From: Chitinophagaceae bacterium
Lineage (GTDB): Bacteria; Bacteroidota; Bacteroidia; Chitinophagales; Chitinophagaceae
Direction: 5' to 3'
Length of the DNA stretch: 12,269 nt
Assembly: GCA_009996555.1 (NCBI GenBank)
Contig: JAACZX010000026.1
Location: forward strand, 1-12,269
The notes below the pieces were generated by a model that saw nothing but the letters and a program-made list of their open reading frames with translations, was not told the origin of the DNA and searched no databases. The position numbers were made by a program, and so were the translations under genes. Shown here piece after piece: positions 593 through 11,654 of the stretch. How positions within the stretch are numbered: position 1 is the first letter of the stretch; each line of letters begins with the position of its first letter.

Positions 593-643
593 AATCCACA
601 GTTTCCCCACAATCCCAGTAATCCCATCAATCACGGTTCAGAC
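593..643. repeat. Period-9 micro-repeat array upstream of thyA
   Basis: Nine-base units follow one another: AATCCACAG at 593-601, TTTCCCCAC at 602-610, AATCCCAGT at 611-619, AATCCCATC at 620-628, AATCACGGT at 629-637, then a TCAGAC tail. Four of five units begin AATC. The array fills most of the gap between the unknown upstream gene and thyA. The motif ending in GGTTCAGAC resembles dispersed repeats I remember from Bacteroidota genomes; that is memory, not a search. It is not a CRISPR array, because there are no long identical repeats and no spacers. Confidence 0.55.
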
Positions 644-662
644 TTTTCTTTACCTTGCAGCC

Positions 663-1457
663 ATGCAACAATACCTCTCTTTACTGCAACATATATTGGA
701 TAACGGAACCGAAAAAACCGATCGTACCGGTACGGGTACCAAAAGTGTATTCGGTTACCAGATGCGTTTTAATTTAAGCGAAGGATTTCCGTTGGTAACA
801 ACCAAGAAAGTGCACATGCGCAGTATTATTCATGAATTACTTTGGTTCCTGAAAGGCGAAACCAATATTGCATACCTCAAAGAGAACAACGTAAGCATTT
901 GGGATGAATGGGCTGATGCAAACGGTGAGCTTGGTCCGGTGTATGGCAAACAGTGGCGTAGCTGGGAAGGAGCGAATGGCGTAGTAATTGACCAGGTGAA
1001 AGATTTGATTGAACAGATCAAAAAAAATCCCGACAGCCGCCGGCTTATTATCAGTGCATGGAATGTAGCCGATCTGCCAAAGATGGCACTGATGCCGTGC
1101 CATACTATTTTTCAGTTTTATGTGGCTGATGGAAAACTCAGTTGCCAGTTATACCAACGCAGTGCCGATGTGTTTTTAGGTGTACCGTTCAACATTGCAT
1201 CGTATGCGTTGTTAACGATGATGATAGCACAGGTGTGTGATCTGCAGCCCGGCGATTTTGTGCATACGTTTGGCGATGTGCATATTTACAGCAATCACAT
1301 GGAACAGGTGAACTTGCAGTTAAGCCGATCACCATTTCCATTACCAGCCATGAAACTGAATCCTGCAGTAAAAGATATTTTCGAATTTAAGTTTGAAGAT
1401 TTTACGCTGGAGAATTACCAGAGTCATGGGGCCATTAAAGCGCCGGTAGCGGTGTAA
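663..1457 (+). CDS. thyA: Thymidylate synthase
   Basis: Cytoplasmic enzyme that methylates dUMP to dTMP with 5,10-methylene-tetrahydrofolate, releasing dihydrofolate. The ATG at 663 gives 264 residues, the same length as E. coli ThyA. All key parts are visible: the phosphate-binding Arg21 in RTGTGT, the [20 protein letters not shown] segment (80-98), catalytic Cys146 in [10 protein letters not shown], the RRL arginines near 126-127, Asp169 in QRSAD, Asn177 in FNIASY, and HIYSNH (207-212) contacting the nucleotide. The C-terminus APVAV matches the family's folate-closing tail. A GTG at 564 would add 33 residues, but these overlap the previous gene and the repeat array and are not family-like, so I reject it. 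folA follows 42 bases later on the same strand and recycles the dihydrofolate made here, so co-transcription is likely. A GC-rich palindrome begins on the first base after the stop. Confidence 0.97.
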
Positions 1458-1480
1458 TGCCCCCATCCCCTAAAGGGGTG
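1458..1480 (+). repeat. GC-rich palindromic repeat, copy 1
   Basis: Starts at the base after the thyA stop. It holds the hairpin core CCCC (1467-1470), TAAA, GGGG (1475-1478), preceded by TGCCCCCA. Aligned with the reverse complement of the sequence at 1537-1560, about 20 of 24 positions agree, so these are two copies of one element in opposite orientation. Such C-rich/G-rich palindromes are REP-like in form. Confidence 0.75.
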
Positions 1481-1499
1481 TTCATAACATCAAACTAAA

Positions 1500-2060
1500 A
1501 TGAATCAATCTGAAATGGCAGTAGGGAAATTTAACAGCCCCCCTTCAGGGGTTGGGGGCATCATAAGTTTAATTGTAGCTGCATCATCCAACAACGCCAT
1601 TGGCAGAGATAATCAATTGCTGTGGCACTTGCCAACCGATCTGAAGTTTTTCAAAAATACTACCTGGGCATTGCCGGTTATTATGGGACGAAAAACATTT
1701 GATTCAGTTGGAGGCAAACCGTTGCAGGGCAGAACAAATATTATCATCACCCGTCAGCAAGGGCTGCAATCCGCTTACGACAATGTATGGTTTGCATCTT
1801 CGCTGGAAGATGCAATAGCGCAGGCAAAGAAACTGGAAACAAAAGAGATCATGATTGCCGGTGGTGCAAATATTTATGAGCAGGCATTGCCAATTGCCAA
1901 TCGCATTTATCTTACCCGTGTACATGCGCATATTGATGCAGCAGATGCATTCTTCCCTGCTTTTGATGTGAATGAATGGACGCTCAGCAGTAACAGCGAT
2001 TTTGCTGCTGATGAAAAACATGCGTATTCGTTTTCTATTCAACAGTGGGACAGACAATGA
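1500..2060 (+). CDS. folA: Dihydrofolate reductase with repeat-derived N-terminal extension
   Basis: NADPH-dependent reduction of dihydrofolate to tetrahydrofolate in the cytoplasm, closing the cycle opened by ThyA just upstream. The family core runs from residue 21: IISLIVAASSNNAIGRDNQ, then LLWHLPTDLKFF (acidic catalytic Asp47), VIMGRKTFDSVGGKPLQGR (60-78, cofactor-binding region) and MIAGGANIYEQALP (118-131, GG pair), then RIYLTRV. The 186 residues exceed a compact DHFR by about 20. The extra N-terminus (MNQSEMAVGKFNSPPSGVGG) is not DHFR-like, and its second half is encoded by a GC-rich palindromic repeat. Residue 21, an ATC Ile codon at 1560, aligns with the usual initiator Met. No ATG, GTG or TTG lies in frame between 1515 and the core, so translation probably starts at ATG 1500 or ATG 1515. 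The stop TGA at 2058 is also the first three bases of a heptamer array. Confidence 0.93.
   Translation: MNQSEMAVGKFNSPPSGVGGIISLIVAASSNNAIGRDNQLLWHLPTDLKFFKNTTWALPVIMGRKTFDSVGGKPLQGRTNIIITRQQGLQSAYDNVWFASSLEDAIAQAKKLETKEIMIAGGANIYEQALPIANRIYLTRVHAHIDAADAFFPAFDVNEWTLSSNSDFAADEKHAYSFSIQQWDRQ
1537..1560 (-). repeat. GC-rich palindromic repeat, copy 2, inside folA
   Basis: Inverted partner of the repeat at 1458-1480, with core CCCC, TTCA, GGGG (the run of C at 1538-1543 and G at 1548-1551) followed by TTGGGGGCA. It is read in frame as folA residues 13-20 (SPPSGVGG). Because the two copies face each other 56 bases apart, a transcript spanning the junction could fold into one long stem with the folA start codon at 1500 in its loop. 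That fold is inference from complementarity. Confidence 0.75.
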
Positions 2061-2117
2061 GTGATGAGTGGTTTCCTGATTCCTAATTCCTAATTCCCAA
2101 TAGCTAATTCCTCACTT
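2058..2117. repeat. Heptamer-type array between folA and the methyltransferase operon
   Basis: Two blocks are visible. The first is TGAGTGA (2058-2064) and TGAGTGG (2065-2071), whose first three bases are the folA stop codon. The second has CTGATTC (2076), CTAATTC (2083), CTAATTC (2090), CCAATAG (2097), CTAATTC (2104) and CTCACTT (2111), all exactly 7 bases apart. The word GATGAGT at 2063-2069 is the reverse complement of ACTCATC, the unit repeated four times inside the rsmF-like gene. The array leaves only 4 bases before the next start codon. Confidence 0.75.
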
Positions 2118-2121
2118 CTTC

Positions 2122-2922
2122 ATGTACACTGTTTTTCAACTTGGTAAAAAATATTTACGCTACTATTTTACAGCTGCCAATGGTAAAGGGCATGGTGTGC
2201 ATTCTCCTTTTGTGTTTGATCTAATTACCAAGGTGCTGAATGATGGAACAACGTATGCAGCTTACAAAGAAGTAGAAACACAACGCAACCTTTTGCTGGG
2301 TAATGAAACCATTATTACAGTTGAAGATTTTGGTGCAGGCTCAACTAAAGGATTAACAAAACAGCGTGTGGTGCAACAGATTGCAACTACATCGTTAAAG
2401 CCGAAAAAATATGCACAACTGTTATATCGGTTAGTAAACTACTTTCAACCGAAACAAATACTGGAGTTAGGCACATCGCTGGGAATAACAACCGCTTATC
2501 TGGCCAAAGCAAATCCTTCTGCTACAGTTACAAGCATGGAAGGTTCTGGAGCCATTGCAACGATTGCACAACAGCAGTTCGATGCATTGCAGTTGAAAAA
2601 TATAAACGTTGTTACAGGTAACTTCGATGAAACATTACAACCGCTGATCGATAATGCACAGCAATCGTTCGATTTTGTTTTTATCGATGGGAACCACCGC
2701 AAAGAACCAATGCTTCGTTATTTCGAACAGTTATTGGCAAAAGCAAATAACGATACAGTATTTGTGTTTGATGATATTTACTGGAGTGCAGAAATGGAAG
2801 AATCATGGGAGAGCATCAAACAGCATTCATCTGTAACCTTAACAATTGACCTGTTTTTTATCGGACTTGTGTTTTTGAGAAAGGAACAGAAGGAGAGGGA
2901 GCATTTTATTATCAGATATTAA
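2122..2922 (+). CDS. Class I SAM-dependent methyltransferase (O-methyltransferase-like)
   Basis: Predicted cytoplasmic methyltransferase of 266 residues; substrate unknown. The Rossmann-type SAM fold is clear: motif I ILELGTSLG at 113-121, an acidic strand end TVTSMEG near 135-141, DFVFIDGNH at 184-192 and VFDDIYW at 215-221. The FIDGNH and DDIYW pair resembles O-methyltransferase and macrocin-type families, where acidic residues often bind a metal, but a specific substrate cannot be read. The N-terminal 100 residues (KYLRYYFTAANGKGHGVHSPFVFDLI) form a lead-in that I recall from many Bacteroidota homologues. No signal peptide or membrane helix is seen. The ATG at 2122 follows a heptamer array, with no Shine-Dalgarno. 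The next gene starts 10 bases after its stop and the third gene 3 bases after that, so the three are probably one transcript. Confidence 0.88.
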   Translation: MYTVFQLGKKYLRYYFTAANGKGHGVHSPFVFDLITKVLNDGTTYAAYKEVETQRNLLLGNETIITVEDFGAGSTKGLTKQRVVQQIATTSLKPKKYAQLLYRLVNYFQPKQILELGTSLGITTAYLAKANPSATVTSMEGSGAIATIAQQQFDALQLKNINVVTGNFDETLQPLIDNAQQSFDFVFIDGNHRKEPMLRYFEQLLAKANNDTVFVFDDIYWSAEMEESWESIKQHSSVTLTIDLFFIGLVFLRKEQKEREHFIIRY

Positions 2923-2932
2923 ACTGAAGTTG

Positions 2933-3370
2933 ATGCGCAATAATATATCAGGACAATGGAAGGGTTATTTTTGGTATGGCAAAGAATATGGAGAATTGGA
3001 AGGTGAGTCCGTTGAGTTTATGATGTTTTTAGAAGATAAGGAAGGTGAGGTGAGTGGGAAGTGTTTTGAAATGGGTGGAGTGGGCGTTGCTGCAGGAGCT
3101 GACTTGGCAGAGATCAGCGGATTTATGAAGGACAATCAAATAAGTTTTATTAAAAAATATGCAGCCGCAACTTTTCTTCATGAAGATGGTAGTGCACATA
3201 TTGATCCTTCTAAACCATCTCATGAAATACATTATGAGGGTGAGTTTAATAGAAGCAAGGAGCAGTTTGAGGGGTCGTGGGAGATTATTGAAAAAGTTGA
3301 AGATTACGGGGATACGCTTATTGAATACTTAGCTACAGGTACATGGATGATGAAAAAAGAAAATGAATAA
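2933..3370 (+). CDS. Small uncharacterised beta-rich protein
   Basis: I do not recognise the family. From ATG 2933 the product has 145 residues; a TTG at 2930 would add one residue and is less likely. There is no signal peptide or membrane segment. The chain alternates short hydrophobic or aromatic strands with Gly turns: SGQWKGYFWYGKEYGELEGESVEF at the start, GEVSGKCFE in the first third, HYEGEFNRSKEQFEGSWEI late, ending LATGTWMMKKENE. Repeated G-x-W and E-G-x-F patterns suggest an antiparallel beta barrel or sandwich, perhaps calycin-like (inference only). One Cys is present and no catalytic motif. It lies 10 bases after the SAM methyltransferase and 3 bases before the rRNA methyltransferase, so it is presumably co-transcribed with both. 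Confidence 0.8.
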   Translation: MRNNISGQWKGYFWYGKEYGELEGESVEFMMFLEDKEGEVSGKCFEMGGVGVAAGADLAEISGFMKDNQISFIKKYAAATFLHEDGSAHIDPSKPSHEIHYEGEFNRSKEQFEGSWEIIEKVEDYGDTLIEYLATGTWMMKKENE

Positions 3371-3373
3371 TAA

Positions 3374-4774
3374 ATGAATCTACCGGCTTCCTTGATGACT
3401 TCGCTCAGTAAGATCAACAGTTTTGATCGGGATGCTTTTGTGCAGGTGCATGAAAGTGGAGAGCAGGTTGTCTCGGTAAGGATGAATCCATTGAAGAAGT
3501 CAATGGTCAATGGTGAATGGTCAATAAGCAACCAGGAGCCGGGTACTCATCACTCATCACTCATCACTCATCAACCTGTTCCCTGGTCCTCCAATGGTTA
3601 TTACCTCAGCGAACGTCCTTTGTTTACACTCGATCCGATGTTACATGCCGGAGTTTATTATGTACAGGAAGCAAGCAGCATGTTTGTGGAAGAGGCAATG
3701 AAGCAAACCATTGATCTTTCGCAACCGCTACTGGTGCTCGATTTGTGTGCAGCACCGGGCGGTAAATCAACACTGCTGCAATCCATCATCAGCAACGAAA
3801 GTTTATTGGTGAGCAATGAAGTCATTCAATCACGGGTAAATATTCTCAAAGAAAACATCATTAAGTGGGGCGCCGATAATGTTGTAGTAACGAATAATGA
3901 TCCATCTGCATTTTCAAAACTCAGCGGTTTGTTTGATGTACTGGTGATTGATGCGCCTTGCAGTGGCAGTGGTTTGTTCCGTCGTGATCCCGAAGCCATC
4001 AATGAATGGAGCGAAGCAAATGTAGAACTCTGCAGCCAGCGGCAGCAACGCATCTTGGCAGATGTATGGCCTTGTTTAAAAGAAGATGGCGTGCTGATCT
4101 ACAGTACCTGTTCATATTCTGCGGAAGAAGATGAAGAGATACTTGAATGGTTGGGCGAAAGATTTGAGGTGGAAGGTATAAGGTTAAAGGTTGATGAGAA
4201 CTGGCATATTGATGAAGTACAAACAAACAGCGGTGCTCATGGCTATCGTTTCTGGCCTAACAAAATAAGAGGCGAAGGATTTTTTATTGCAGCCTTTCGA
4301 AAAAAAGAAACACCTGCGCCGTTGCGCATCAAAATAAAAAACACACAAGCTCCTGCAAAGAAAGATGCAGCCATTGCTGCGCAGTGGATGCAAAAAACCG
4401 ATGCCTATAGTTTTGTAATGCAGGGACAACTTATTGCAGCTGTACCAACTGCATGGCACGATACCATACAATTTCTGATGCAGGAATTGAAAGTGCGTTA
4501 TGCAGGAGTAGAGTTAGGTACTATTGCAAAAAATGATCTGTTGCCCGAGCATGCATTGGCGCTGAGTACAAATGTGCACAGCAATGTGGTACGTGTTGAA
4601 CTAACCAAAGAACAGGCATTGGATTATTTGCGTAAGAACGATTTGCAGCTCGATCATCCGCATAAAGGATGGGCACTGGCAACCTACAACGGAATGGGCT
4701 TAGGCTGGATGAAGTTGCTGGGCAACCGGATGAATAATTATTATCCAAAAGAGTGGCGGATCTTGATGCGATGA
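3374..4774 (+). CDS. rsmF: RsmF-like rRNA (cytosine-C5) methyltransferase, NOL1/NOP2/Sun family
   Basis: Cytoplasmic enzyme expected to transfer a methyl group from SAM to C5 of a cytosine in rRNA; RsmF acts on 16S rRNA C1407 in E. coli, and the exact target here is inference. The 466 residues contain VLDLCAAPGGKS (121-132, SAM binding), FDVLVIDAPCSGSG (187-200, motif IV with Cys196) and LIYSTCSYSAEEDEE (241-255, motif VI with catalytic Cys246). Residues 310-466 form the C-terminal extension typical of the RsmF branch, ending with LDHPHKGWALATYNGMGLGWMK, which suits RNA binding. The start ATG is 3 bases after the preceding stop. Odd point: residues 42-67, between VRMNPLKK and VPWSSNGYYLSERP, are encoded by two heptamer arrays and look like an in-frame insertion in a loop of the N-terminal region. 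The motifs around it are intact, so the protein is probably functional. Confidence 0.9.
   Translation: MNLPASLMTSLSKINSFDRDAFVQVHESGEQVVSVRMNPLKKSMVNGEWSISNQEPGTHHSSLITHQPVPWSSNGYYLSERPLFTLDPMLHAGVYYVQEASSMFVEEAMKQTIDLSQPLLVLDLCAAPGGKSTLLQSIISNESLLVSNEVIQSRVNILKENIIKWGADNVVVTNNDPSAFSKLSGLFDVLVIDAPCSGSGLFRRDPEAINEWSEANVELCSQRQQRILADVWPCLKEDGVLIYSTCSYSAEEDEEILEWLGERFEVEGIRLKVDENWHIDEVQTNSGAHGYRFWPNKIRGEGFFIAAFRKKETPAPLRIKIKNTQAPAKKDAAIAAQWMQKTDAYSFVMQGQLIAAVPTAWHDTIQFLMQELKVRYAGVELGTIAKNDLLPEHALALSTNVHSNVVRVELTKEQALDYLRKNDLQLDHPHKGWALATYNGMGLGWMKLLGNRMNNYYPKEWRILMR
3499..3572 (+). repeat. Two heptamer arrays embedded in frame in the rsmF-like gene
   Basis: Block one has four units 7 bases apart: GTCAATG (3499), GTCAATG (3506), GTGAATG (3513) and GTCAATA (3520). 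After an 18-base spacer, block two has four perfect ACTCATC units at 3545, 3552, 3559 and 3566. Seven is not a multiple of three, so successive units are read in different frames, giving a non-repetitive peptide (residues 42-67). The reading frame is nevertheless preserved across the whole insertion. Confidence 0.9.
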
Positions 4775-4862
4775 AAGTGTCTGTTGTTTCAAGGAGCACC
4801 CGGCATGTTGTAAATACGAATTCAGGATTGCGTTTGCTGCATCTCAACTACACTCATATTCA

Positions 4863-6506
4863 CTACTTGAATTTTGTATTGAAGATGAGCTTTAAGCCCG
4901 TCCACACAATAATTACAACACTTGTATAAAACAGAATTTTGCTTCCGGTATTTTGGGGCTGAAAGATCATGAGCAGTGTGGCACAAATAAGTACGAGCCC
5001 AATGATGAACACAAAGGCCAGCCTGTTAAAATTTTGACGTAGTGCTTTATTTGTAAAGCTGTCTTCACGAAAGTTAATTTCATGTTTCAATGTTCCTTTG
5101 CGCAGGTTATTAATGATCTCTTTCAGATCATCGGGCAAACGATCAACTATGTACAGGTAATCTTCAGCTGAATTAATGACCTTGTTGATAATGGCATCAA
5201 AACTGAATTTCTCTTTGATCTTTTCCCTTGCATACGGTTCAATCATGTTGATGATGGATATCTCGGCTTCCAATGCTTCTGCAAATTTCTGAATGGTGCC
5301 AAGTGCTTTCAGCAGCATGTATAAGTTTGTCGGTACTTTTAATCCATGCCGCAAGATCACTTTAAACGTATCGGCCATCAGGCTCGAAATATCTACTTTA
5401 TCGTAAGGGATATAACTGTACTTCTGTATCAGTTCGCTGATCTCAAATTCAAGATCTGCATGGTCTTTATAAAAATTTACATTCAGCAGTTCAAGCAATG
5501 CCTTGCTGATGCGATGTGTATCCTGCCGTGCAAACCCCAGCATGAAATTAATGAGTGCCTGTATTTGTGCAGGTTTTAAACTGGCCGTCATGCCATGGTC
5601 AAGCAGTACAACCTGGTTGTTTTCACGAATGAGTAAGTTGCCTGCATGCGGATCGGCATGAAAAAAACCATGCTTCAGGATCATCTTTAAAATGATCTGT
5701 GTGCCGTTAACAGCAATCTGGTTAATGTCGTATCCCTTTGCAAGCAGTTGTTCTTTTGCATCGGGCTCAATGCCTTCTACAAATTCCATTACAAGAATTT
5801 TCTGCGTGGTGTAATGGCTGTACACTTTTGGAATATAGCAATAGTCGTCATGCTTGAACATTTCAGCAAACCGCATCATATTTGATGCTTCATTGGTAAA
5901 ATCAAGTTCCTTTTTCATGATCTCACCAAAGTCTTCCACAAATTCAATCACATTAAAGCTTGCCAGTTCGGGATATGATTTTACTACCTGTTCAGCCAGC
6001 ACACGCATCAGCACAAGGTCGATACTGATTTTTTGTTTGATGTGCGGGCGCTGCACTTTTATTGCCACGGTTTCGCCACTACGCAGTACGCCTCTGTACA
6101 CCTGTGCAATAGATGCAGATGCAATCGGTCGTTGATCAAGCTGTGCAAATACTTCATGAACAGGATCGCCCAGTTCTTCTTCCATAATGCGCCATGCCTG
6201 TGTATTGTCAAAAGGTTTGGCCGAGGTCTGTAATTTTTTTAATTCATTGCGCAACTGTTCACTTACAAGATCCGGACGGTCGGCAATGATCTGTCCAAAC
6301 TTGACAAAGGTGGGGCCAAGGTCTTCGATCATCAAACGCAATCGCTCAGCACGTGTAGTAAGATTTTTTCCTTTGGGGTCAACTATTTTACGCAGAAACC
6401 GGTTGTTGTTAATGCCGTTACGGATAGCATGTTTCAGGATGATCAGGATGATACTGATTAACCTGAAACTGTTCCTGAATAAGCGATTAACACGGAATAA
6501 CCACAT
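4863..6506 (-). CDS. ABC1/AarF/UbiB family kinase-like protein
   Basis: Membrane-associated atypical kinase-like ATPase of the family containing UbiB and AarF, which supports quinone or lipid metabolism in other organisms; in a presumed menaquinone-based bacterium its target is unknown. I use ATG 6506 (547 residues) rather than a TTG two codons earlier. Signature parts: PTFVKFGQIIADRPDLVS (65-82, the KxGQ motif), the Ala-rich loop PIASASIAQVYRG (127-139), Lys150 in VAIKVQRP, KELDFTNEASN (199-209), FFHADPHAGNLL (281-292) and LLDHGM (301-306, the metal-binding DFG equivalent). Two C-terminal hydrophobic helices (about 497-515 and 524-541) would anchor it in the inner membrane. An N-terminal hydrophobic stretch lies near 16-28. 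Transcription runs towards the rsmF-like gene; 88 bases separate the two convergent stops. A hairpin terminator lies between it and the YtxH-like gene upstream, so it probably has its own promoter. Confidence 0.92.
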   Translation of the reverse strand: MWLFRVNRLFRNSFRLISIILIILKHAIRNGINNNRFLRKIVDPKGKNLTTRAERLRLMIEDLGPTFVKFGQIIADRPDLVSEQLRNELKKLQTSAKPFDNTQAWRIMEEELGDPVHEVFAQLDQRPIASASIAQVYRGVLRSGETVAIKVQRPHIKQKISIDLVLMRVLAEQVVKSYPELASFNVIEFVEDFGEIMKKELDFTNEASNMMRFAEMFKHDDYCYIPKVYSHYTTQKILVMEFVEGIEPDAKEQLLAKGYDINQIAVNGTQIILKMILKHGFFHADPHAGNLLIRENNQVVLLDHGMTASLKPAQIQALINFMLGFARQDTHRISKALLELLNVNFYKDHADLEFEISELIQKYSYIPYDKVDISSLMADTFKVILRHGLKVPTNLYMLLKALGTIQKFAEALEAEISIINMIEPYAREKIKEKFSFDAIINKVINSAEDYLYIVDRLPDDLKEIINNLRKGTLKHEINFREDSFTNKALRQNFNRLAFVFIIGLVLICATLLMIFQPQNTGSKILFYTSVVIIVWTGLKLIFNTKFK

Positions 6507-6539
6507 AAGCAATGTTTAACCTTGTGAAGAATGGGACTG

Positions 6540-6552
6540 TTTTACTGTAAAA
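6540..6552. promoter_or_regulatory. Perfect 13-base palindrome upstream of the UbiB-like gene
   Basis: TTTTAC, a central T, then GTAAAA. It lies between the YtxH-gene terminator and the UbiB-like start codon, 33 bases upstream of ATG 6506. It could be an operator or simply AT-rich sequence extending the terminator; nothing here decides. Confidence 0.25.
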
Positions 6553-6555
6553 TAC

Positions 6556-6579
6556 AAAAGGAGCCGGAAACCGACTCCT
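6556..6579 (-). terminator. Rho-independent terminator after the YtxH-like gene
   Basis: On the minus strand a 9-bp stem, AGGAGTCGG pairing with CCGGCTCCT (one T-G wobble), closes a TTT loop and is followed by a short run of T. It lies 23 bases past the YtxH-like stop and separates that gene from the UbiB-like gene. The plus strand also gives a stem but has no strong T tract, so I assign it to the minus strand. Confidence 0.7.
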
Positions 6580-6601
6580 CTTATTTGCATCCGGTACCAG
6601 T

Positions 6602-6889
6602 TTAAGAAACCAGTTGCTCCTTGATATGATTACCGGTTAGCTTCGTTGCCTGCAAAATTTCAAGCACACGTTTTCTTGTATCTTCTTTTAAGCCCGCAAT
6701 TTCATGTTTAAATACTTCTTTCAGTTCTTCTATTTCTGTACTGCTGCTTTTAACCTTGTACAATCGTTCCTTAAGATCACTGAATTTTTCAGAGATCATA
6801 TTACGCATCGAACTTCCACGTTCAGGGGCCATCAGCATACCAACAGCTGCACCTGCAGCCACGCAGGCAAAAATTAATTTCATACTCAT
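6602..6889 (-). CDS. YtxH-domain-like small membrane protein
   Basis: 95 residues. The N-terminus MSMKLIFACVAAGAAVGMLMAPERGSSMR is a hydrophobic, Gly/Ala-rich helix followed by the APxxG turn that marks YtxH-type proteins. The rest (about 30-95) is a charged, heptad-like helix (EIEELKEVFKHEIAGLKEDTRKRVLEIL) likely to form a coiled coil in the cytoplasm. Related small proteins in other bacteria are linked to general stress, but the molecular role is unknown. ATG 6889 is the first start; ATG 6883 is equally possible and would remove two residues. The gene is probably monocistronic, since a terminator follows it. The 283-base gap behind its start is filled largely by three heptamer arrays, leaving about 65 bases for a promoter. 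Confidence 0.8.
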   Translation of the reverse strand: MSMKLIFACVAAGAAVGMLMAPERGSSMRNMISEKFSDLKERLYKVKSSSTEIEELKEVFKHEIAGLKEDTRKRVLEILQATKLTGNHIKEQLVS

Positions 6890-6954
6890 AATGCTGTGTG
6901 TTTAAAGGTGAATAATGATGTGGTATTTTCAAGAACCTTGCCAAAATGAAAGAC

Positions 6955-6989
6955 GAAGTAAGAAGTACGAGGTACGAAGTAGGAAAGCT
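6955..6989. repeat. Heptamer array, GARGTAC type, copy 1
   Basis: Five units 7 bases apart: GAAGTAA (6955), GAAGTAC (6962), GAGGTAC (6969), GAAGTAG (6976) and a decayed GAAAGCT (6983). The same word family recurs at 8957-8991. Confidence 0.8.
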
Positions 6990-7028
6990 ACATGAGACAA
7001 GGCACAGAAAAGAAGAAAATCCAACACC

Positions 7029-7077
7029 CCAAAAACCAAAAGACAAAATCCAAAGTCCAAAAACCAAAATACAAGGG
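7029..7077. repeat. Heptamer array, CCAAAAN type
   Basis: Seven units in register: CCAAAAA (7029), CCAAAAG (7036), ACAAAAT (7043), CCAAAGT (7050), CCAAAAA (7057), CCAAAAT (7064) and ACAAGGG (7071). It lies in the gap between the RNase H and YtxH-like genes, between two other heptamer arrays built from different words. Confidence 0.8.
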
Positions 7078-7105
7078 TTGAAGCAACGTGTATAATAAGA
7101 AGCCT

Positions 7106-7175
7106 GTAACCGGCAACAAGAAACCAGCAACATCTAGCTACAAGCCATCAACTTCAAACTATAAACCAACAATCA
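7106..7175. repeat. Heptamer array, NNAACNN type, reaching the RNase H stop
   Basis: Nine or ten units in strict 7-base register: GTAACCG (7106), GCAACAA (7113), GAAACCA (7120), GCAACAT (7127), CTAGCTA (7134), CAAGCCA (7141), TCAACTT (7148), CAAACTA (7155), TAAACCA (7162), then ACAATCA (7169). An A-A-C or A-G-C core sits at unit positions 3-5 in most. The last unit contains the minus-strand TGA stop of the RNase H gene. Confidence 0.75.
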
Positions 7176-7808
7176 TTTTCTTCCAAAATCAGCAGGGTTT
7201 TCGCCCCATGCTTCTGTTTCCCATTTTAAAACTTTATTGCGGTATGAGTTTTCGGTCAGCCATTTTTCTGCACGGTAAATAAGATCGAAAATGTGTTGTG
7301 TTTTTGCCGATTGTTCAAGATTGGTTTTGCATTTTTTTGCTTTTACCCAGCCTATGGCATTACGGCTGTCGCTGTAAATGGGCATGGTTGCAAGCCCGTG
7401 TTTTTTACAGTAACCCAATGCATGTACAATGGCTAAAAACTCACCAATATTGTTGGTTCCGTTTGCCAGCGGCCCCATGTGAAAAATGCGGGAGTTGGTT
7501 TTGTAAAGGATGCCCTGGTATTCCATATCTTTCTGCACACTGTTCCATGCAGCATCAACAATAATACTGTCGTGTATGGGTGTGCCCACTGCCGAAAGAT
7601 CTTTTGCTGTAATGTCTTTCTCTTTTTTGTAAATGTGTTTGGCAAAGTTTTCTTTGAAGGCCTGCTCAGCTTCGGTTTTAGAAGTAAACGATTTGTAAGC
7701 AGCACCTGTAAAACCTTCTACCTGTGTTTTACAATCGTTCCAGTTTGTGTAAATGCCGGGCTCTTTTCCTTTCCAGACAACGTAGTATTTCTGCGTTACT
7801 TTGCTCAT
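7173..7808 (-). CDS. rnhA: Ribonuclease H with N-terminal viroplasmin/hybrid-binding domain
   Basis: Degrades the RNA strand of RNA:DNA hybrids in the cytoplasm. The 211 residues begin with the hybrid-binding (viroplasmin) domain, KYYVVWKGKEPGIYTNWNDCKTQVEGFTGAAYKSFTSKTEAEQAF (7-51), followed by the RNase H fold. The carboxylate set is present: Asp85 in SIIVDAAWN, Glu123 in NNIGEFLAIVHAL, Asp147 in PIYSDSRNAIGWV and Asp207 in ENPADFGRK. After Asp85 the homologues I remember have a small-residue turn of the VDAACSGNPG kind; here it is VDAAWNSVQKD, so this loop is unusual. ATG 7808 gives a normal N-terminus. It is divergent from the LysM gene across 158 bases, and its stop lies in a heptamer array. 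Confidence 0.92.
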   Translation of the reverse strand: MSKVTQKYYVVWKGKEPGIYTNWNDCKTQVEGFTGAAYKSFTSKTEAEQAFKENFAKHIYKKEKDITAKDLSAVGTPIHDSIIVDAAWNSVQKDMEYQGILYKTNSRIFHMGPLANGTNNIGEFLAIVHALGYCKKHGLATMPIYSDSRNAIGWVKAKKCKTNLEQSAKTQHIFDLIYRAEKWLTENSYRNKVLKWETEAWGENPADFGRK

Positions 7809-7913
7809 GAGGCTGCAATGTTAATAAAAGAAACGTTAAGCCGGATGAAACAGCATTTGAAAGGGCATAGACCGGTATCTGTGTAATTGCAAAAATTGGG
7901 TTAAGCTTTTCTT

Positions 7914-7928
7914 TGGCACAATACTTTC
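7914..7928 (+). promoter_or_regulatory. Possible sigma-54-like promoter for the LysM gene
   Basis: TGGCAC (7914-7919), five bases, then TTTC (7925-7928) fits the -24/-12 layout TGGCAC-N5-TTGC with one mismatch in the critical GC of the -12 element. The transcript would begin about 25 bases before ATG 7967. Alternatives are a -7-like TACTTTCG at 7922-7929 or CATCTTTG at 7950-7957. No rpoN or activator gene is visible in the window. Confidence 0.3.
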
Positions 7929-7966
7929 GTGGAATTCTGCATCTTTGCAGAGAAAATAATGATCAC

Positions 7967-8953
7967 ATGAAGAGAGCCTTTTTGTTTTTTTCGCTCCTGT
8001 TAACTGGTTTTTTGGCAATGGCACAAACAACACCATTGCAGGTGCAACTGGATAACCAGGGCAAACCCTATCTTAATCACAGCATTGGGCCGAAGGAAAA
8101 TTTTTACAGCATCGGCCGTATTTACAATATCAGTCCACGGGTGTTTGCGCCTTATAATGGGTTGGAGTTAACCTCGCCATTAAGCATTGGTCAGCAAATG
8201 CGTATTCCGTTGAACGAAGTGAATTTCTGGCAGTCAGGTACAAGAAAAGAGAACGAGATAGTGGTGCCTGTTTATTATGCTGCAAAGCAAGGCGAAACTG
8301 TTGGAAAGATCAGTCAGCTGTTTGGTACTGATAATGCATCCATCCAGTCATGGAACAATATCAGCGGTAATGCAGTAAGTGCCGGAAGTAAAATAATTAT
8401 TGGTTTTTTGAAAGTTGATAAAACATTGTCTTCGTTGGCAGCGCATGGTATGAGTGTGCGTACTGAACCTCCTGTGGTAAAGCAGCAGCCCAAACAGGAA
8501 GAGCCGAAGAAACAGGATGTGGTGGTGAAAAAAGAAGAACCTAAACAGGAAGTGAAGGTAGATACGCCAAAGCCTGAACCGAAAAAAGAAGAACCAAAAG
8601 TGGTGAATGATGCAGTGAGTTATGCAGGGAACGGTTTTTTTAAAGATGAGTTTAACCGCCAAACAAATAACGGTCGCCGTACAGATGCAAACAATGGTCC
8701 GGGATCAGTATTTAAAAGTACCAGTGGCTGGAGCGATGGCAAGTATTATGTGCTTATTGACAATGTAGAAAAAGGAACCATTGTGATGGTGCGCAATCCT
8801 TCAAATGGCAAAGCCGTATATGCAAAAGTGCTGGGCAGCGTGGAAGAAACAAGCCCCGGCAGTGGTTTGATGTTTCGCCTGAGTAACTCTGCTGCTGCAC
8901 AACTGGGTATAAGTGCAGAAAAGTTTAATGCGGAATTGGTGTGGGGGAAATAG
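7967..8953 (+). CDS. Secreted LysM protein with RlpA-like C-terminal domain
   Basis: Exported envelope protein of 328 residues. MKRAFLFFSLLLTGFLAMAQ is a signal peptide with likely cleavage after AMA or AQ. Two LysM-type modules follow: residues 38-82 (HSIGPKENFYSIGRIYNISPRVFAPYNGL to QMRIPL) and 104-148 (YAAKQGETVGKISQLFGTDNASIQSWNNI to KIIIGFL), expected to bind peptidoglycan glycans. A Lys/Glu/Pro/Gln-rich linker spans about 167-213. The C-terminus (218-328), with SYAGNGFFKDEF, the YYVLIDNVEKGTIVMVRNPSNGKAVYAKVLG strand set and FRLSNSAAAQLGI, resembles the double-psi beta-barrel of RlpA-like proteins; lytic activity cannot be assumed. A TTG at 7913 would precede the signal peptide and is rejected. 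The TPM lipoprotein gene follows 63 bases downstream. A heptamer array begins 3 bases after the stop. Confidence 0.9.
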   Translation: MKRAFLFFSLLLTGFLAMAQTTPLQVQLDNQGKPYLNHSIGPKENFYSIGRIYNISPRVFAPYNGLELTSPLSIGQQMRIPLNEVNFWQSGTRKENEIVVPVYYAAKQGETVGKISQLFGTDNASIQSWNNISGNAVSAGSKIIIGFLKVDKTLSSLAAHGMSVRTEPPVVKQQPKQEEPKKQDVVVKKEEPKQEVKVDTPKPEPKKEEPKVVNDAVSYAGNGFFKDEFNRQTNNGRRTDANNGPGSVFKSTSGWSDGKYYVLIDNVEKGTIVMVRNPSNGKAVYAKVLGSVEETSPGSGLMFRLSNSAAAQLGISAEKFNAELVWGK

Positions 8954-8956
8954 AGA

Positions 8957-8991
8957 GAAGTACGAGGTATGAGGTACGAAATACGAAGCAG
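8957..8991. repeat. Heptamer array, GARGTAC type, copy 2
   Basis: Five units 7 bases apart: GAAGTAC (8957), GAGGTAT (8964), GAGGTAC (8971), GAAATAC (8978) and GAAGCAG (8985). It matches the array at 6955-6989 in unit, orientation and copy number, and starts 3 bases after the LysM gene stop. Confidence 0.8.
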
Positions 8992-9016
8992 ATTTCTCAA
9001 CCTTAATAAACTTAAC

Positions 9017-9589
9017 ATGATAGTCAAAAAGAAAACAGGCATATTGATCTTTTTCTTTTTGGCTATTTTTCTTTCTTGTACTGATACAAAAAACAAAGGC
9101 GGCGGAACGCAGGCAACCAATGCCGCTCAAACGGATGGAGTTCTAAACAGGAATTTATTTCTTAAGAATCTTCCTGCTCCGACTGGCTACGTGAATGATT
9201 ATGATAATTTGTTTACAGACACGGAGCAGACACATTTAGATAGCTTAATTGATGCGTTTGAGAAAGCAACCACAATTGAAATAGCAATCATCACTCTTGA
9301 TTCTTCTGCTTGTACTAAAGAGGACTTTGATTCGCTCACCCTGGAAATTGCAAGGAAGTTGGGAGTTGGAAAGAAGAACGCCAATAATGGAGTTTTGATT
9401 GGTATTTGCCATGGATACAGGAGAATAAGAATACAGAATGGATATGGTATTGAAAAGATATTGAGTGACGAAGAAACCAAACAAATCATTGTCAACTACT
9501 TTGTTCCTGGATTTAAACAGGAGGGCTACTATAAAGGAACTTATAATGGACTAACAGAACTAATGCGGATTTTGTCTGCAAGAATATAG
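9017..9589 (+). CDS. TPM-domain lipoprotein
   Basis: 190 residues from ATG 9017. MIVKKKTGILIFFFLAIFLSC is a lipoprotein signal with the lipid-modified Cys at 21 (FLSC lipobox); a polar Gly/Thr/Ala linker follows, so the protein should be tethered to a membrane and face the periplasm. Residues from about 57 form a TPM domain (named for TLP18.3, Psb32 and MOLO-1): GYVNDYDNLFTDTEQTHLDSLIDAFEKATTIEIAIITLDS, then GKKNANNGVLIGICHGYRRIRIQNGYGIEKILSDEET and a C-terminal helix. The domain is linked to phosphatase or protein-stability roles elsewhere, but the function here is unknown. Many TPM proteins have a C-terminal membrane helix; this one lacks it. An in-frame ATG at 8969 lies inside the heptamer array and would bury the signal peptide, so I reject it. 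Confidence 0.88.
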   Translation: MIVKKKTGILIFFFLAIFLSCTDTKNKGGGTQATNAAQTDGVLNRNLFLKNLPAPTGYVNDYDNLFTDTEQTHLDSLIDAFEKATTIEIAIITLDSSACTKEDFDSLTLEIARKLGVGKKNANNGVLIGICHGYRRIRIQNGYGIEKILSDEETKQIIVNYFVPGFKQEGYYKGTYNGLTELMRILSARI

Positions 9590-9591
9590 AG

Positions 9592-9647
9592 TTAGCTAAC
9601 TTCTTTTCTCATTCCACTCGTTCAAACTCTTAGCTTCTTAACTTCTA
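9592..9647. repeat. Degenerate heptamer array between convergent TPM and fmt stops
   Basis: Weak 7-base register across the 48-base gap: TTAGCTA (9592), ACTTCTT (9599), then decayed pyrimidine-rich units, CTTCTTA (9634) and ACTTCTA (9641). ACTTCTT and ACTTCTA lie exactly 42 bases (six units) apart. The array begins 2 bases after the TPM stop and runs over the fmt stop at 9638-9640. This is the least certain of the arrays. Confidence 0.4.
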
Positions 9648-10636
9648 TATCCCCTCAAAAAATCTTCAATCAACATTCTCTTTTTCCCTTCAAGCTGTAG
9701 TTCCAATACATGAATAAAGCCATTGCTGCAGGCGAATTTGAAAAAGGTTTTGCCATCGGTGGTAAAGCTGTTGTCGGTCAGACCGCTTTCAGCGGGCCGA
9801 CCGACTGTTACTTCCTTCTTCGATTTATAGATCTTCATCATCTTTCCGTTAAACGTTGTAAACGCACCGGGAAAAGGAGAGAGCCCACGAATGAGATTGT
9901 GTACTTCATCAACAGGTTTACTGAAGTCGATCTTACAGGTTTCGGTAAAAATTTTAGGTGCATGTTTGAGATTGCTCCACTGTCCACTGTCCACAGACGA
10001 TGGTAAAACATCAGCACTCAACTGTGGACTATTGACTGTGGTCTGTGGACGTTCTTCAATCGTTCCGTTCATCAATCCTTCAACTGTTTTTACCAGCAAC
10101 TGTGCTCCAATCTCTTTCATGCGGTCGTGTACCTCACCTGCTGTTTCATCTTCACCAATCGGAAATGATTCCTGTAACAGAATATCGCCGGTATCAATTT
10201 CATGTTTCAGTTTAAACGTAGTAACACCGGTTTCTTTTTCGCCATTGATCACAGCCCAGTTAATAGGCGCTGCTCCACGGTAATGCGGCAATAAGCTGCC
10301 ATGTACATTCACTGTACCCATCTTTGGCATGTTCCAGACTGCTTCGGGTAACATACGGAAGGCCACCACGATCTGCAGATCGGCACGCAGCGATATTAAT
10401 TCTTTCAGGAAAACAGGGTTCTTCAGTTTCTCCGGTTGCAGCACAAACAAGTTATGTTCAGTTGCGTATTTCTTCACTGCACTTTCTGTGATCTTCATGC
10501 CACGTCCAGCCGGTTTATCAGGAGCTGTAATAACAGCAACAATATTGTAACCTGCCTTCACCAATGCATCTAACGATGCCACTGCAAATTCAGGTGTACC
10601 CATAAACACAATGCGTGGAGATTCTTTTGTAACCAT
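9638..10636 (-). CDS. fmt: Methionyl-tRNA formyltransferase
   Basis: Formylates Met-tRNA(fMet) with 10-formyl-tetrahydrofolate for translation initiation. From ATG 10636 the product has 332 residues. Landmarks: RIVFMGTPEFAV (8-19), ITAPDKPAGRG (36-46), catalytic Asn110 and His112 in VNVHGSLLPHYRGAAPINW (109-127), the SLLPHYRG folate motif, and Asp148 in HEIDTGDILL. The C-terminal tRNA-binding domain starts near LKHAPKIF (223) and ends LELQLEGKKRMLIEDFLRGYRS. A start 14 codons earlier is rejected because it lies upstream of a good -7 element. Residues 195-220, between NGTIEERP and LKHAPK at the linker joining the two domains, are encoded by heptamer arrays and look like an in-frame insertion. 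A second palindrome (9773-9805) lies in the C-terminal domain. It is convergent with the TPM gene and follows parA on the same strand after 166 bases. Confidence 0.95.
   Translation of the reverse strand: MVTKESPRIVFMGTPEFAVASLDALVKAGYNIVAVITAPDKPAGRGMKITESAVKKYATEHNLFVLQPEKLKNPVFLKELISLRADLQIVVAFRMLPEAVWNMPKMGTVNVHGSLLPHYRGAAPINWAVINGEKETGVTTFKLKHEIDTGDILLQESFPIGEDETAGEVHDRMKEIGAQLLVKTVEGLMNGTIEERPQTTVNSPQLSADVLPSSVDSGQWSNLKHAPKIFTETCKIDFSKPVDEVHNLIRGLSPFPGAFTTFNGKMMKIYKSKKEVTVGRPAESGLTDNSFTTDGKTFFKFACSNGFIHVLELQLEGKKRMLIEDFLRGYRS
9773..9805. repeat. Palindrome within fmt
   Basis: Outer arms GTCGGTC (9773-9779) and GACCGAC (9799-9805) enclose inner arms CCGCT (9783-9787) and AGCGG (9791-9795), with 3-base internal mismatches and a TTC loop. 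It encodes part of VGRPAESGLTD in Fmt, a segment that varies between Fmt proteins. It is notably GC-rich against its surroundings. Confidence 0.6.
9977..10053 (-). repeat. Heptamer arrays embedded in frame in fmt
   Basis: On the plus strand, CCACTGT occurs at 9977 and 9984, then CCACAGA at 9991; after a 21-base spacer come CAACTGT (10019), GGACTAT (10026), TGACTGT (10033), GGTCTGT (10040) and GGACGTT (10047). In the fmt sense these include GTCAATA, also a unit of the array in the rsmF-like gene. The two blocks are partly complementary (GTCCACAG with CTGTGGAC), so the mRNA could form a hairpin. It encodes Fmt residues 195-220. Confidence 0.85.
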
Positions 10637-10640
10637 GCCG

Positions 10641-10648
10641 CAAAAGTA
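10641..10648 (-). promoter_or_regulatory. Bacteroidota-type -7 element of fmt
   Basis: The minus strand reads TACTTTTG, a full match to the TAnnTTTG -7 consensus of Bacteroidota. It ends only 4 bases before the fmt ATG, so transcription would begin at or close to the start codon, giving a very short leader or none. I see no convincing -33 element at normal spacing. Confidence 0.5.
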
Positions 10649-10670
10649 AAGAGAAAGCAGATAGTAATTT

Positions 10671-10801
10671 TTTGCCACTAAGGCGCAAAGGCCCGAAGCT
10701 GCACAAAGAAGAAAATAAGAAAGAAATTTTTAGTGACGCTTGTCCGTTAAAATTTCTTTGCTGAATTAAATTTCAATTGAAGAATGTGGCTTTGTGGCAA
10801 A
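10671..10801. repeat. Inverted-repeat element filling the parA-fmt gap
   Basis: Terminal arms TTTGCCAC (10671-10678) and GTGGCAAA (10794-10801) are perfect inverse complements. Next to the left arm, 8-base units follow (CTAAGGCG, CAAAGGCC, CGAAGCTG); the right side mirrors this loosely with GTGGCTTTGTGGC. An 11-bp stem lies inside. The element ends one base before the parA stop. This layout resembles dispersed repeats I remember from Bacteroidota genomes. No ORF lies inside, so it is non-autonomous if it is mobile. Confidence 0.65.
10720..10759 (-). terminator. Possible terminator hairpin of parA
   Basis: AAAGAAATTTT (10720-10730) and AAAATTTCTTT (10749-10759) form a perfect 11-bp AT-rich stem with an 18-base loop. 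On the minus strand it is followed by a T-rich stretch. It lies 44 bases past the parA stop, inside the larger inverted-repeat element. The AT-rich stem and large loop are weaker than a classic terminator. Confidence 0.35.
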
Positions 10802-10802
10802 C

Positions 10803-11630
10803 TCAACCGGCGGTTTCTTCTTCCTCATCCATTTCAATGATCTTGTCTTCCTGGTTGATCTTTGTGAGATTATTGCGTTGCAGAATTTCTTTTGCAAGGT
10901 TGAGATAGTTGATGCTGCCTTTGCTTTCGCTGTCGTATAAGATTACCGGTTTGCCAAAGCTGGGCGCTTCACTTAAACGGGTGTTGCGGTGTATGATGCT
11001 GTCGAACACAATGCCTTCAAAATGCCTGCGCACTTCACTCACCACCTGGTTGCACAAACGCAAACGGCCATCATACATCGTCATCAAAATACCTTCAATC
11101 ACCAGTTGCGGATTTAAACGGCTTTGTACAATCTTGATGGTGTTGAGTAATTTACCCAAACCTTCCAATGCAAAGAATTCAGTTTGCACAGGCACAACAA
11201 CTGAGTCGGCAGCGGTTAATGCATTTACCGTAATTAAACCAAGCGATGGTGAACAGTCGATGATAATAAAATCATACTCGTTTTTGATCGGCTCAAGCAA
11301 TTGCTTCAGCACCGATTCACGGTTGGGCTGATTGATCATTTCAATTTCAGCACCCACCAGGTCAATATGCGAAGGAATAAGATCGAGGTTGGGAATTTCG
11401 CTTTTCAGCACCACATCTTTTGCATTGGCACCATTTACAAAGCAATCATACAGGCTTTGCTGAATATTGTGCAGATCAAAACCAATACCTGTGGTGCTGT
11501 TTGCCTGCGGATCAGCATCAATCAGTAATGTTTTGTATTCAAGCACAGCAAAGCTGGCAGCAAGGTTTATTGCAGTAGTGGTTTTTCCTACGCCACCTTT
11601 TTGATTCGCTATTCCAATAATTCGACCCAT
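10803..11630 (-). CDS. parA: ParA/Soj family chromosome-partitioning ATPase
   Basis: Cytoplasmic P-loop ATPase that binds DNA non-specifically and, with ParB bound to parS, moves replicated origins apart. The 275 residues carry the deviant Walker [11 protein letters not shown] at 11-20 with its signature Lys11, [10 protein letters not shown] at 35-44 (A' motif, Asp38 and Asp40), [18 protein letters not shown] at 121-138 (Walker B), [14 protein letters not shown] at 145-158, and [14 protein letters not shown] at 215-228, typical of chromosomal Soj-type proteins. There is no N-terminal helix-turn-helix domain, which argues against a plasmid type Ia ParA. The last residues ([12 protein letters not shown]) form an acidic tail. 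No parB follows; the next gene is fmt behind an inverted-repeat element. The UPF0173 hydrolase ends 23 bases upstream on the same strand, so the two may be co-transcribed. Confidence 0.95.
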
Positions 11631-11640
11631 ATATTCAGCT

Positions 11641-11654
11641 ATCAGTTTTCAGTT
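11641..11654. repeat. Two-unit heptamer remnant between parA and the hydrolase gene
   Basis: ATCAGTT (11641) and TTCAGTT (11648) are adjacent 7-base units differing at one base, within the 23-base gap, and the second touches the hydrolase stop codon. Two units alone are weak; I list it because of the pattern elsewhere in the window. Confidence 0.3.

Follow-up and report, generated by a model that had tools for sequence, protein, structure and literature searches.

Seven-base repeat arrays with inward polarity and changing words in a Chitinophagaceae genome and other bacteria

Arrays along the contig

The window analysed here is the entire contig JAACZX010000026.1 of a Chitinophagaceae bacterium (12,269 bases), part of a draft genome of 4.13 Mb in 801 contigs. 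Between and within its genes (Table 1) lie short tandem arrays of seven-base units (heptamers). These form modules of two facing arrays, each with its G-rich strand running 5' to 3' towards the middle, separated by filler. In the samples named below, the arrays keep a period of seven and their inward polarity, while their words are reused across loci and phyla and turn over at orthologous sites. In one word family the order of units is common to unrelated loci, and copies within genes keep the reading frame open.

We counted a lag-7 array wherever 12 or more of 14 neighbouring bases equal the base seven positions on, with a weaker threshold of at least 11 of 14. The window holds 6 arrays at the main threshold and 11 at the weaker one, compared with means of 0.05 (maximum 2) and 0.47 (maximum 3) in 1000 dinucleotide shuffles. 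In its noncoding bases the match rate is 0.362 at lag 7, 0.337 at lag 14, and 0.243–0.306 at lags 3–6 and 8–13. Tandem Repeats Finder (TRF, score 30) reported the period-7 rows entered in Table 1 and an additional short row at 1886-1901. In the CTAATTC arm the weaker threshold is reached at 2070-2104, with G minus C of -6. Besides those in gaps, some arrays follow stop codons and some sit within genes; the sites 3498-3576 and 9973-10048 are intragenic and leave the frame open. No arm facing the array at 8956-8991 was seen ahead of the TPM gene.

A sequence-only reading of this contig had proposed a constant seven-base register with changing words, and both TRF and the lag-7 counts against shuffles confirm it: the seven main arrays hold. 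The period stays at seven while words differ between loci, genomes and phyla. Of its other sites, 11641-11654 has a high lag-7 identity (0.86) over a length of only 14 bases, 9592-9647 fits lag 8 (0.46) better than lag 7 (0.33), and the left end at 593-632 follows lag 9 (0.65) rather than lag 7 (0.21). The array at 4172-4194 and the opposite-polarity pairing of arrays were missed. The arrays were correctly taken to be neither the product of slippage of one word nor clustered regularly interspaced short palindromic repeats: the window contains four direct-repeat families of 2–3 copies each (seed 12, length at least 18), none evenly spaced, and the TRF units are contiguous.

Table 1. Genes and seven-base arrays of the window. 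Gene names rest on Pfam and NCBIfam matches; "identity" is the lag-7 identity over the interval given. The window scan found zero tRNA genes and zero Rfam families at gathering score.
Feature	Position	Strand	Evidence and remarks
Open reading frame (ORF) without Pfam match	2-586	+	
Thymidylate synthase	663-1457	+	Pfam/NCBIfam
DHFR	1500-2060	+	Pfam/NCBIfam
G-rich arm, GATGAGT	2057-2071	+	Starts at DHFR stop codon (2058-2060); sequence; identity 0.68 over 2058-2117
C-rich arm, CTAATTC	2072-2112	-	Faces 2057-2071 arm, in gap 5' of methyltransferase gene; TRF 2073-2112
S-adenosylmethionine methyltransferase	2122-2922	+	Pfam/NCBIfam
ORF without Pfam match	2936-3370	+	
RsmF-like rRNA methyltransferase (rsmF-like gene)	3374-4774	+	Pfam/NCBIfam
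G-rich arm, GTCAATG/GTGAATG	3498-3525	+	Within rsmF-like gene, open frame; TRF 3499-3525; orthologous site in sister genomes; identity 0.75 over 3499-3572
C-rich arm, ACTCATC x4	3543-3576	-	Within rsmF-like gene; TRF 3545-3573, orthologue comparison, folding
Weak array, AAGGTTN	4172-4194	+	Within rsmF-like gene; orthologue comparison, lag-7 count
ABC1 kinase-like gene	4863-6512	-	Pfam/NCBIfam
YtxH	6602-6889	-	Pfam/NCBIfam
G-rich arm, GTACGAR family	6953-6986	+	TRF 6953-6985; carries shared unit order GTAAGAA-GTACGAG-GTACGAA; identity 0.71 over 6955-6989
C-rich arm, CCAAAAN	7028-7074	-	Faces 6953-6986; TRF 7029-7069, lag-7 count; identity 0.71 over 7029-7077
Second, weaker C-rich array, NNAACNN	7106-7175	-	Ends at RNase H1-like gene; identity 0.56
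RNase H1-like	7173-7808	-	Pfam/NCBIfam
LysM gene	7967-8953	+	Pfam/NCBIfam
G-rich array, GTACGAR	8956-8991	+	Directly past LysM stop codon; TRF 8960-8979, lag-7 count; identity 0.71 over 8957-8991
TPM-domain ORF	8969-9589	+	Pfam/NCBIfam
Methionyl-tRNA formyltransferase (fmt)	9638-10636	-	Pfam/NCBIfam
C-rich arm, CCACTGT	9973-10000	-	Linker between two Formyl_trans domains of fmt; TRF 9976-9994, orthologues, Pfam; identity 0.59 over 9977-10053
G-rich arm, GTGGACT	10027-10048	+	Same fmt linker; at least 11/14 only
ParA-like	10803-11630	-	Pfam/NCBIfam
Short weak array	11634-11655	-	5' of ParA-like gene start; at least 11/14 only
Metallo-beta-lactamase fold	11654-12268	-	Pfam/NCBIfam

Constant period and changing words

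The lag-7 excess over shuffles, named beforehand as the test of the proposed register, is present both in the window and in a sample of its own genome. This sample (the window plus 20 contigs; 195,304 bases) contains 25 arrays at lag 7, 5 at lag 6, 3 at lag 8 and 0–1 at lags 4, 5, 9, 10, 11 and 13; one shuffle gave 0 at lag 7. Expressed per 100 kb, lag-7 arrays number 12.8 in the own genome and, elsewhere in the genus, 15.4 in G004, 11.0 in G001, 8.0 in G010, 7.6 in G006, 7.5 in G002, 5.7 in G013, 4.0 in G007 and 2.2 in G005, with 7.1 in the fmt region of G003 and 3.9 in its random stretches. Several of these samples were chosen around named genes and hence are not a random choice; in G009, G011 and G012, the 20 kb surrounding fmt reach 20–50 arrays per 100 kb. 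Outside the genus, the density is 5.5 in another genus of the same family (G017), and no array was found in 40 kb of a genome of the same order (G025) or in 60 kb of Escherichia coli. Shuffles of the density-sample sequences gave 0–4 arrays each.

The excess is not equally strong everywhere, as lag 6 (20 arrays) exceeds lag 7 (15) in the random stretches of G003. A 20-kb stretch of G008 (L330) has no lag-7 array of at least 12/14, although this genome holds 90 matches to three units of GTANGAR; it was excluded from all density and polarity counts.

The words themselves are diverse. Among 103 arrays from the own sample, four 210-kb sister segments and 19 further G003 stretches, with orthologous copies counted separately, we found 58 word classes, several of them recurring. 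G004 has zero triple units of GTANGAR or GTGARTG, yet it is among the genomes richest in arrays, with words such as TTAGTAA and ACAACCT; hence, the period is kept while the words change. Three units of GTANGAR occur at 20 loci of the own genome (merged listing), and the reversed control had 0 matches in 13 of 14 genomes and 1 match in G010. In the GTDB collection, at least 117 stretches contain triple GTGAATG; among the matches listed, the record titles name Bacteroidota, Chloroflexi, Acidobacteria, Cyanobacteria, Alpha-, Beta- and Gammaproteobacteria, Campylobacterota, Geobacter relatives, Lentisphaerae, Planctomycetes and Clostridia. At one site of G010 (L325, 9276-9343) the word shifts gradually in one register, from GTAGCCG through GTAGTAG to GTAGGAA/GTAAGAA.

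A 12-mer scan for a longer parent element found none among the 12-mers listed. In the own sample, heptamer words were among the most dispersed of 71 12-mers, alongside ordinary-looking ones, and in G003 about 70 of 508 rows were listed, all taken up by one 240-base repeat. By 12-mer counts this genome has a 240-base tandem repeat of about nine copies, from about position 9600 of L069.

Polarity of neighbouring arrays

Among adjacent arrays 8–120 bp apart with both arms clearly skewed, 56 of 79 pairs are G-then-C, 13 are G-G, 10 are C-C and none is C-then-G; 12 ambiguous pairs were set aside, and two pairs holding N (one GC, one GG) were dropped. The cross-phylum set (117 loci, 841,167 bases) gave 43 G-then-C pairs in 37 sequences, 12 GG, 9 CC, 0 C-then-G and 8 ambiguous pairs, and the genus set (68 sequences, 1,867,805 bases) gave 13, 1, 1, 0 and 4, respectively. 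Pairs with neither GTGAATG nor CATTCAC in either arm show the same order (G-then-C 14, C-then-G 0). At 120–300 bases the cross-phylum set has 6 G-then-C pairs and 1 C-then-G pair. At 300–3000 bp the order turns, with C-then-G in 30 and G-then-C in 13, as expected if neighbouring modules are separate and each points inward.

The GTGAATG loci, of which 80 were examined from 117 fetched, give a similar picture. An inverted partner (at least 15/21) lies within 150 bases downstream in 25 and upstream in 0. Within flanks of 250 bases, 27 of the 80 have an inverted and 19 a direct partner; at 395 positions drawn at random from these loci, the corresponding counts are 29 and 35. Polarity also relates to the neighbouring genes: of 74 noncoding arrays, 56 have their nearest ORF 5' of the G strand and 18 have it 3' (median distance 20 versus 95.5 bp). 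The nearness of GTGAATG arrays to stop codons was excluded from the evidence, because the word itself contains a stop codon that ends ORFs.

Inverted pairs raised the suspicion that a hairpin is the essential feature. Paired arrays might be kept as an RNA or DNA stem-loop for transcription termination or mRNA protection, and some sites do fold well: the window rsmF site (94 bases) folds better than 200 of 200 shuffles (z -3.9), and fmt of G001 and rsmF of G009 reach z -8.2 and z -7.8. However, orthologous copies are often unfolded (fmt of G006, z +1.6; fmt of G012, z +2.2; rsmF of G013, z +1.0), and copies within genes need no terminator. Arms match each other's words (6–7 of 7) in 27 of 56 pairs, moderately above the 32% obtained with arms shuffled between loci, so that polarity is the more constant feature. 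Moreover, polarity is present inside genes of either direction and where the arms have unlike words; consequently, transcription, translation and selection for hairpins do not easily account for it. We rejected the hairpin as the essential feature and consider its selection a quite unlikely explanation of the arrays.

Shared order of units

Within the GTACGAR family, units differ from one another at two positions. The cyclic order GTACGAG>GTACGAA>GTAAGAA occurs at 25 of 59 GTACGAR loci in four genomes, and the reverse order at 3. Shuffling units within loci gave 12.5 ± 2.6 loci with the forward order and a maximum of 22 (5000 shuffles). Forward and reverse orders number 10 and 0 of 20 loci in the own genome, 6 and 1 of 13 in G003, 5 and 1 of 16 in G001, and 4 and 1 of 10 in G009; since some of these loci are orthologous, the four genomes are not independent.

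The ten own-genome loci with the forward order have unrelated flanks, and share blocks of up to 31–33 nearly identical bases at the array. A comparison of 13 own-genome stretches, including all ten, found matches at the array, mostly of 17–45 bases, with weaker ones of 59 and 72 bases and one of 77 (L020 with L024) that includes a palindrome. Because the flanks do not match beyond the array, the loci do not represent duplicated regions. A shared order is not expected if each locus slips independently, so unit blocks appear to have been copied between loci.

This bears on an alternative in which arrays arise in place by slipped-strand mispairing in seven-base steps, as the polymerase holds about seven bases, and words differ with the starting sequence. 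Such slippage was proposed by Mrazek 2007, as cited in PMC4692102 and PMC4679880. It agrees with the 21-base length steps at rsmF and fmt (see below), with the long pure arrays in G010, and with Cyanothece strains that differ mostly by 7-nt increments (PMC4679880). It does not predict strand polarity, and neither the common unit order nor a vocabulary common across phyla is in line with it. Local slippage alone therefore seems to us a rather improbable account.

The sequence-only reading had suggested a mechanism that measures length. The fixed period and the steps of 21 bases (3 x 7) favour this part of the proposal. The words, however, are not independent of each other, as the vocabulary is reused and unrelated loci have their order of unit variants in common; hence, copying between loci is needed as well.

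Array sites in orthologous genes

Orthologous sites retain an array and change its words, also in frame inside genes. Ten genomes of the genus have a longer fmt segment between the two Formyl_trans domains, and nine of these carry a lag-7 array of at least 12/14 there (not G013). The segment is short in G004, G005, G007 and the six other-genus genomes aligned, and G008 had no comparable fmt match. The words at this site are CCACTGT in the own genome and G013, GTGAATG/GTGAGTG with CATTGAC in G001, G003 and G009, GATGAGT in G006, G011 and G012, and GTCAGTC-like in G002 and G010. Its length is 109 bases in six genomes, 97 in two, 88 in one and 85 in one. The rsmF-like site, which lies inside the N-terminal Pfam match and not in a linker, measures 94 bases in four and 115 in three of seven genomes compared. 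Lengths of 94 versus 115 and 109 versus 88 thus differ by 21 bases, while the fmt lengths of 97 and 85 do not fit this step; these are comparisons between species of one genus. In G011 a different palindrome occupies the rsmF-like site. The interval of the weak array at 4172-4194 is constant in length with differing words in the 10 genomes compared.

In prmC and trmN6 of many genomes, arrays lie directly ahead of methyltransferase motif I, in several with GTACGAR-like 5' and CACTCACC-like 3' arms. The prmC segment (14 genomes) measures 99 and 102 bases in the array-less G004 and G007, 141 in G005, which has no clear array, and an irregular 108–210 in the others. For trmN6, 10 of 13 loci could be parsed: four array-less segments have 93 bases, G001 has 111, and G003, G009 and G013 have 132. 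Open-frame arrays also occur within the hydrolase domain of a copper-type ATPase (L019) and between the NAD and 2Fe-2S domains of an FAD/2Fe-2S reductase (L264).

Unit number was expected to be polymorphic between strains. Loci of this kind are known from Xanthomonas, where a typing table lists 7-base loci that vary in unit number (PMC8002079) and typing studies contain the word GGGAATC; our own comparison is at species level.

Turnover of words also concerns the possibility, likewise raised in the sequence-only reading, that arrays are binding sites of a protein that reads DNA in seven-base steps. A fixed spacing would suit such a protein, as would two ACCATTAACCATTAAACCTTA boxes that are unchanged in five genomes. 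Yet words differ so widely between loci and orthologues that there is no constant site, and we regard this explanation as very unlikely. By eye, the two ACCATTAACCATTAAACCTTA boxes are direct repeats about 144 bases apart around a terminator-like hairpin (L021, 8035-8219); they are unchanged in their orthologues in segments of G003, G006, G013 and G001 while other arrays drift, and are perhaps a real regulatory element.

A further observation concerns the gap between the ParA-like gene and fmt, which in the window (about 10660-10805) contains a long imperfect inverted repeat (TTTGCCACTAAGG...GGCTTTGTGGCAAA). In sister genomes the arms at this gap are quite different (GCTAGCTGATAGC type), i.e., they have been replaced.

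Candidate genes and mobile elements

A marker gene co-occurring with the arrays had been anticipated; tests of three families, namely Y1 transposase, Ku and RVT_1, yielded none. Y1 transposase occurs in 13 of the 14 genus genomes; it is absent from the array-bearing G006, and G002, with seven matches, is poor in the tested words. Ku was found in 1 of the 14 (G006) and in 11 of all 38 relatives. RVT_1 is present in 6 of the 14, and absent from G004, G005, G006, G008, G010, G011, G012 and G013.

The Y1 results weigh on the idea of a non-autonomous mobile element, resembling a miniature inverted-repeat transposable element or a repetitive extragenic palindromic (REP) element, whose inverted-repeat ends are heptamer arrays and which is spread by a transposase. 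Its dispersed copies, inverted arms and presence within several genes would fit, as would the REP-like palindrome between the arms of some copies (prmC of G010 and G011) and the 77 bp of array plus palindrome common to L020 and L024. Nevertheless, the arms of one copy are often unlike in word, a common outer end was not seen, and Y1, the transposase family tested, does not track the arrays: besides its absence from G006, the 12 Y1 loci fetched carry separate palindromes and, among them all, one weak lag-7 array. We therefore rejected a Y1/REP origin, and a mobile element in general seems unlikely. REP-like palindromes of the form CGTCTGACGCCCYCGTCTGACGG (with variants) were seen between or beside the heptamer arms in some copies, namely prmC of G010 and G011, L069 at about 430-455, and L273. 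By eye, the Y1 genes in L312-L321 are flanked by several different palindrome families of their own.

An RNA-templated, telomerase-like activity that writes the G-rich strand at broken ends would leave G-rich 3' ends pointing inward, as expected when two telomere-like ends are joined, and a shared template would yield a shared unit order. Against this, there are too many words for one template, and RVT_1, the reverse transcriptase family tested, is absent from 8 of the 14 genomes, including the array-bearing G004, G006, G010 and G013. We rejected RVT_1 as a general requirement and consider such an activity highly improbable. Ku end joining was likewise rejected for this genus, since Ku does not track the arrays.

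Relation to known repeats

REP elements with RAYT (Y1) transposases are dispersed palindromic repeats. Such palindromes are present in the same genomes as the arrays; the fetched Y1 genes are flanked by palindromes proper to them and not by heptamers. Interstitial telomeric repeats of mammals consist of one hexamer word. They resemble the arrays in lying at sites read as repaired double-strand breaks, and for some of them RNA-templated writing has been proposed (PMC2246262). However, telomerase is involved there, whereas here the words vary and RVT_1 is not required.

In most genomes, heptamers outnumber every other class of long simple repeats, and their slippage has been tied to polymerase contact length; both points are credited to Mrazek 2007 in PMC4679880 and PMC4692102. 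The excess of seven-base tandem units found here (25 arrays versus 0–5 at lags 4–6, 8–11 and 13 in the own sample) agrees with this, while the passages citing Mrazek 2007 mention no polarity, shared unit order or word turnover.

The GGGAATC and GGGGA(C/T)T repeats of Xanthomonas and Nostoc (PMC4692102), whose functional role was said to remain to be elucidated, are similar in arrangement. They are mostly intergenic, their array lengths differ between species, and their G strand starts near the 5' neighbouring ORF, as in 56 versus 18 of our noncoding arrays. Convergent GGGAATC pairs (70 cases in Xcc, 75 in Xac, few in Nostoc) parallel the excess of G-then-C over C-then-G among our 79 pairs. They differ in having G-tract words with G-quadruplex potential, whereas our arrays have many words and pairs of unlike words; repeated GGG units occur in 0 of the 11 window arrays. 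The TAACTGA repeats of Beggiatoaceae, Cyanobacteria and some Bacteroidetes (PMC4679880) are likewise intergenic, found in distant phyla, mixed with other heptamers, and variable in 7-nt steps. In contrast to our arrays, they have one word, lie mostly directly before start codons, and include 1 inverted repeat among 170 sets in that genome. TAACTGA is the unit of no window array.

The heptamer excess of bacteria, the polymerase-slippage idea and the one-word convergent pairs of Xanthomonas are thus already known. For the polarity rule across words, the shared unit order and the word turnover at orthologous sites, we found no precedent in the literature searched, with many subscription papers outside its scope; PMC4060949 contains neither "heptamer" nor "heptanucleotide". 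Two papers in that literature, PMC4679880 and PMC4692102, deal specifically with heptamer arrays of bacteria.

A possible origin at breaks or gaps

The interpretation that we favour, tentatively and with a probability of roughly 0.37, is that other arrays serve as templates for extending 3' ends at breaks or gaps, in seven-base jumps, before the ends are joined. At a break or single-strand gap, each 3' end would prime on a few matching bases in an existing array elsewhere. It would copy that array and re-anneal in seven-base jumps, by which the array would lengthen and blocks of words would move between loci. Joining of the two extended ends would leave a G-rich and then a C-rich array around filler. 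Within genes, only sites with an intact frame, in a protein able to tolerate the insert, would persist. What fixes the jump at seven bases is probably how much duplex a replicative or repair polymerase holds, a proposal made earlier for bacterial heptamers. Growth of the G strand at its 3' end on both sides of a gap would account for the polarity, copying from other arrays would explain the shared vocabulary and order, and seven-base re-annealing jumps would explain the period and the drift of words. The interpretation given in the sequence-only reading is, on balance, partly supported.

Several observations weigh against end extension. Neither a break footprint (sought by eye only) nor a target duplication or an enzyme was found. 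The genus pairs come down to about eight distinct sites, as fmt, rsmF and the YtxH-RNase H gap recur across genomes. GG and CC neighbours make up 23 of the 79 clear pairs, a C-then-G pair occurs at 257 bp in L244, and the fmt arms of the window itself form a C-then-G pair, one arm of which is below the counting threshold. Matching of arms within a locus is modest. Array-free intergenic gaps (629, from genus segments) also lean G-then-C (38 versus 9, with GG 25 and CC 18), and part of the polarity may therefore be background. The order test covers one word family only. The trmN6 segments of G006 and G008 contain an array yet have the array-less length of 93 bases; overwriting without insertion is thus possible, which counts against a model of pure insertion. 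Furthermore, array sites are kept within the genus, Xanthomonas heptamer sites are more conserved than controls (PMC4692102), and the variation in unit number between Xanthomonas strains (PMC8002079) fits local slippage as well.

Array-free gaps that are G-rich on the left and C-rich on the right may contain decayed arrays, or another process may shape ordinary gaps.

Polarity and shared unit order limit the possible mechanisms, and both are testable on any complete genome. On a broader and rather doubtful view, a widespread bacterial process would write G-rich heptamers on 3' ends at breaks or gaps, copying word blocks in seven-base jumps, and join the ends. Ordinary polymerases would thereby produce a counterpart of interstitial telomeric repeats, in which past repairs are recorded and from which proteins gain in-frame segments. 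If end extension holds, the arrays would be what repair leaves behind and would provide new protein segments, as seen in fmt, prmC, trmN6 and the rsmF-like gene.

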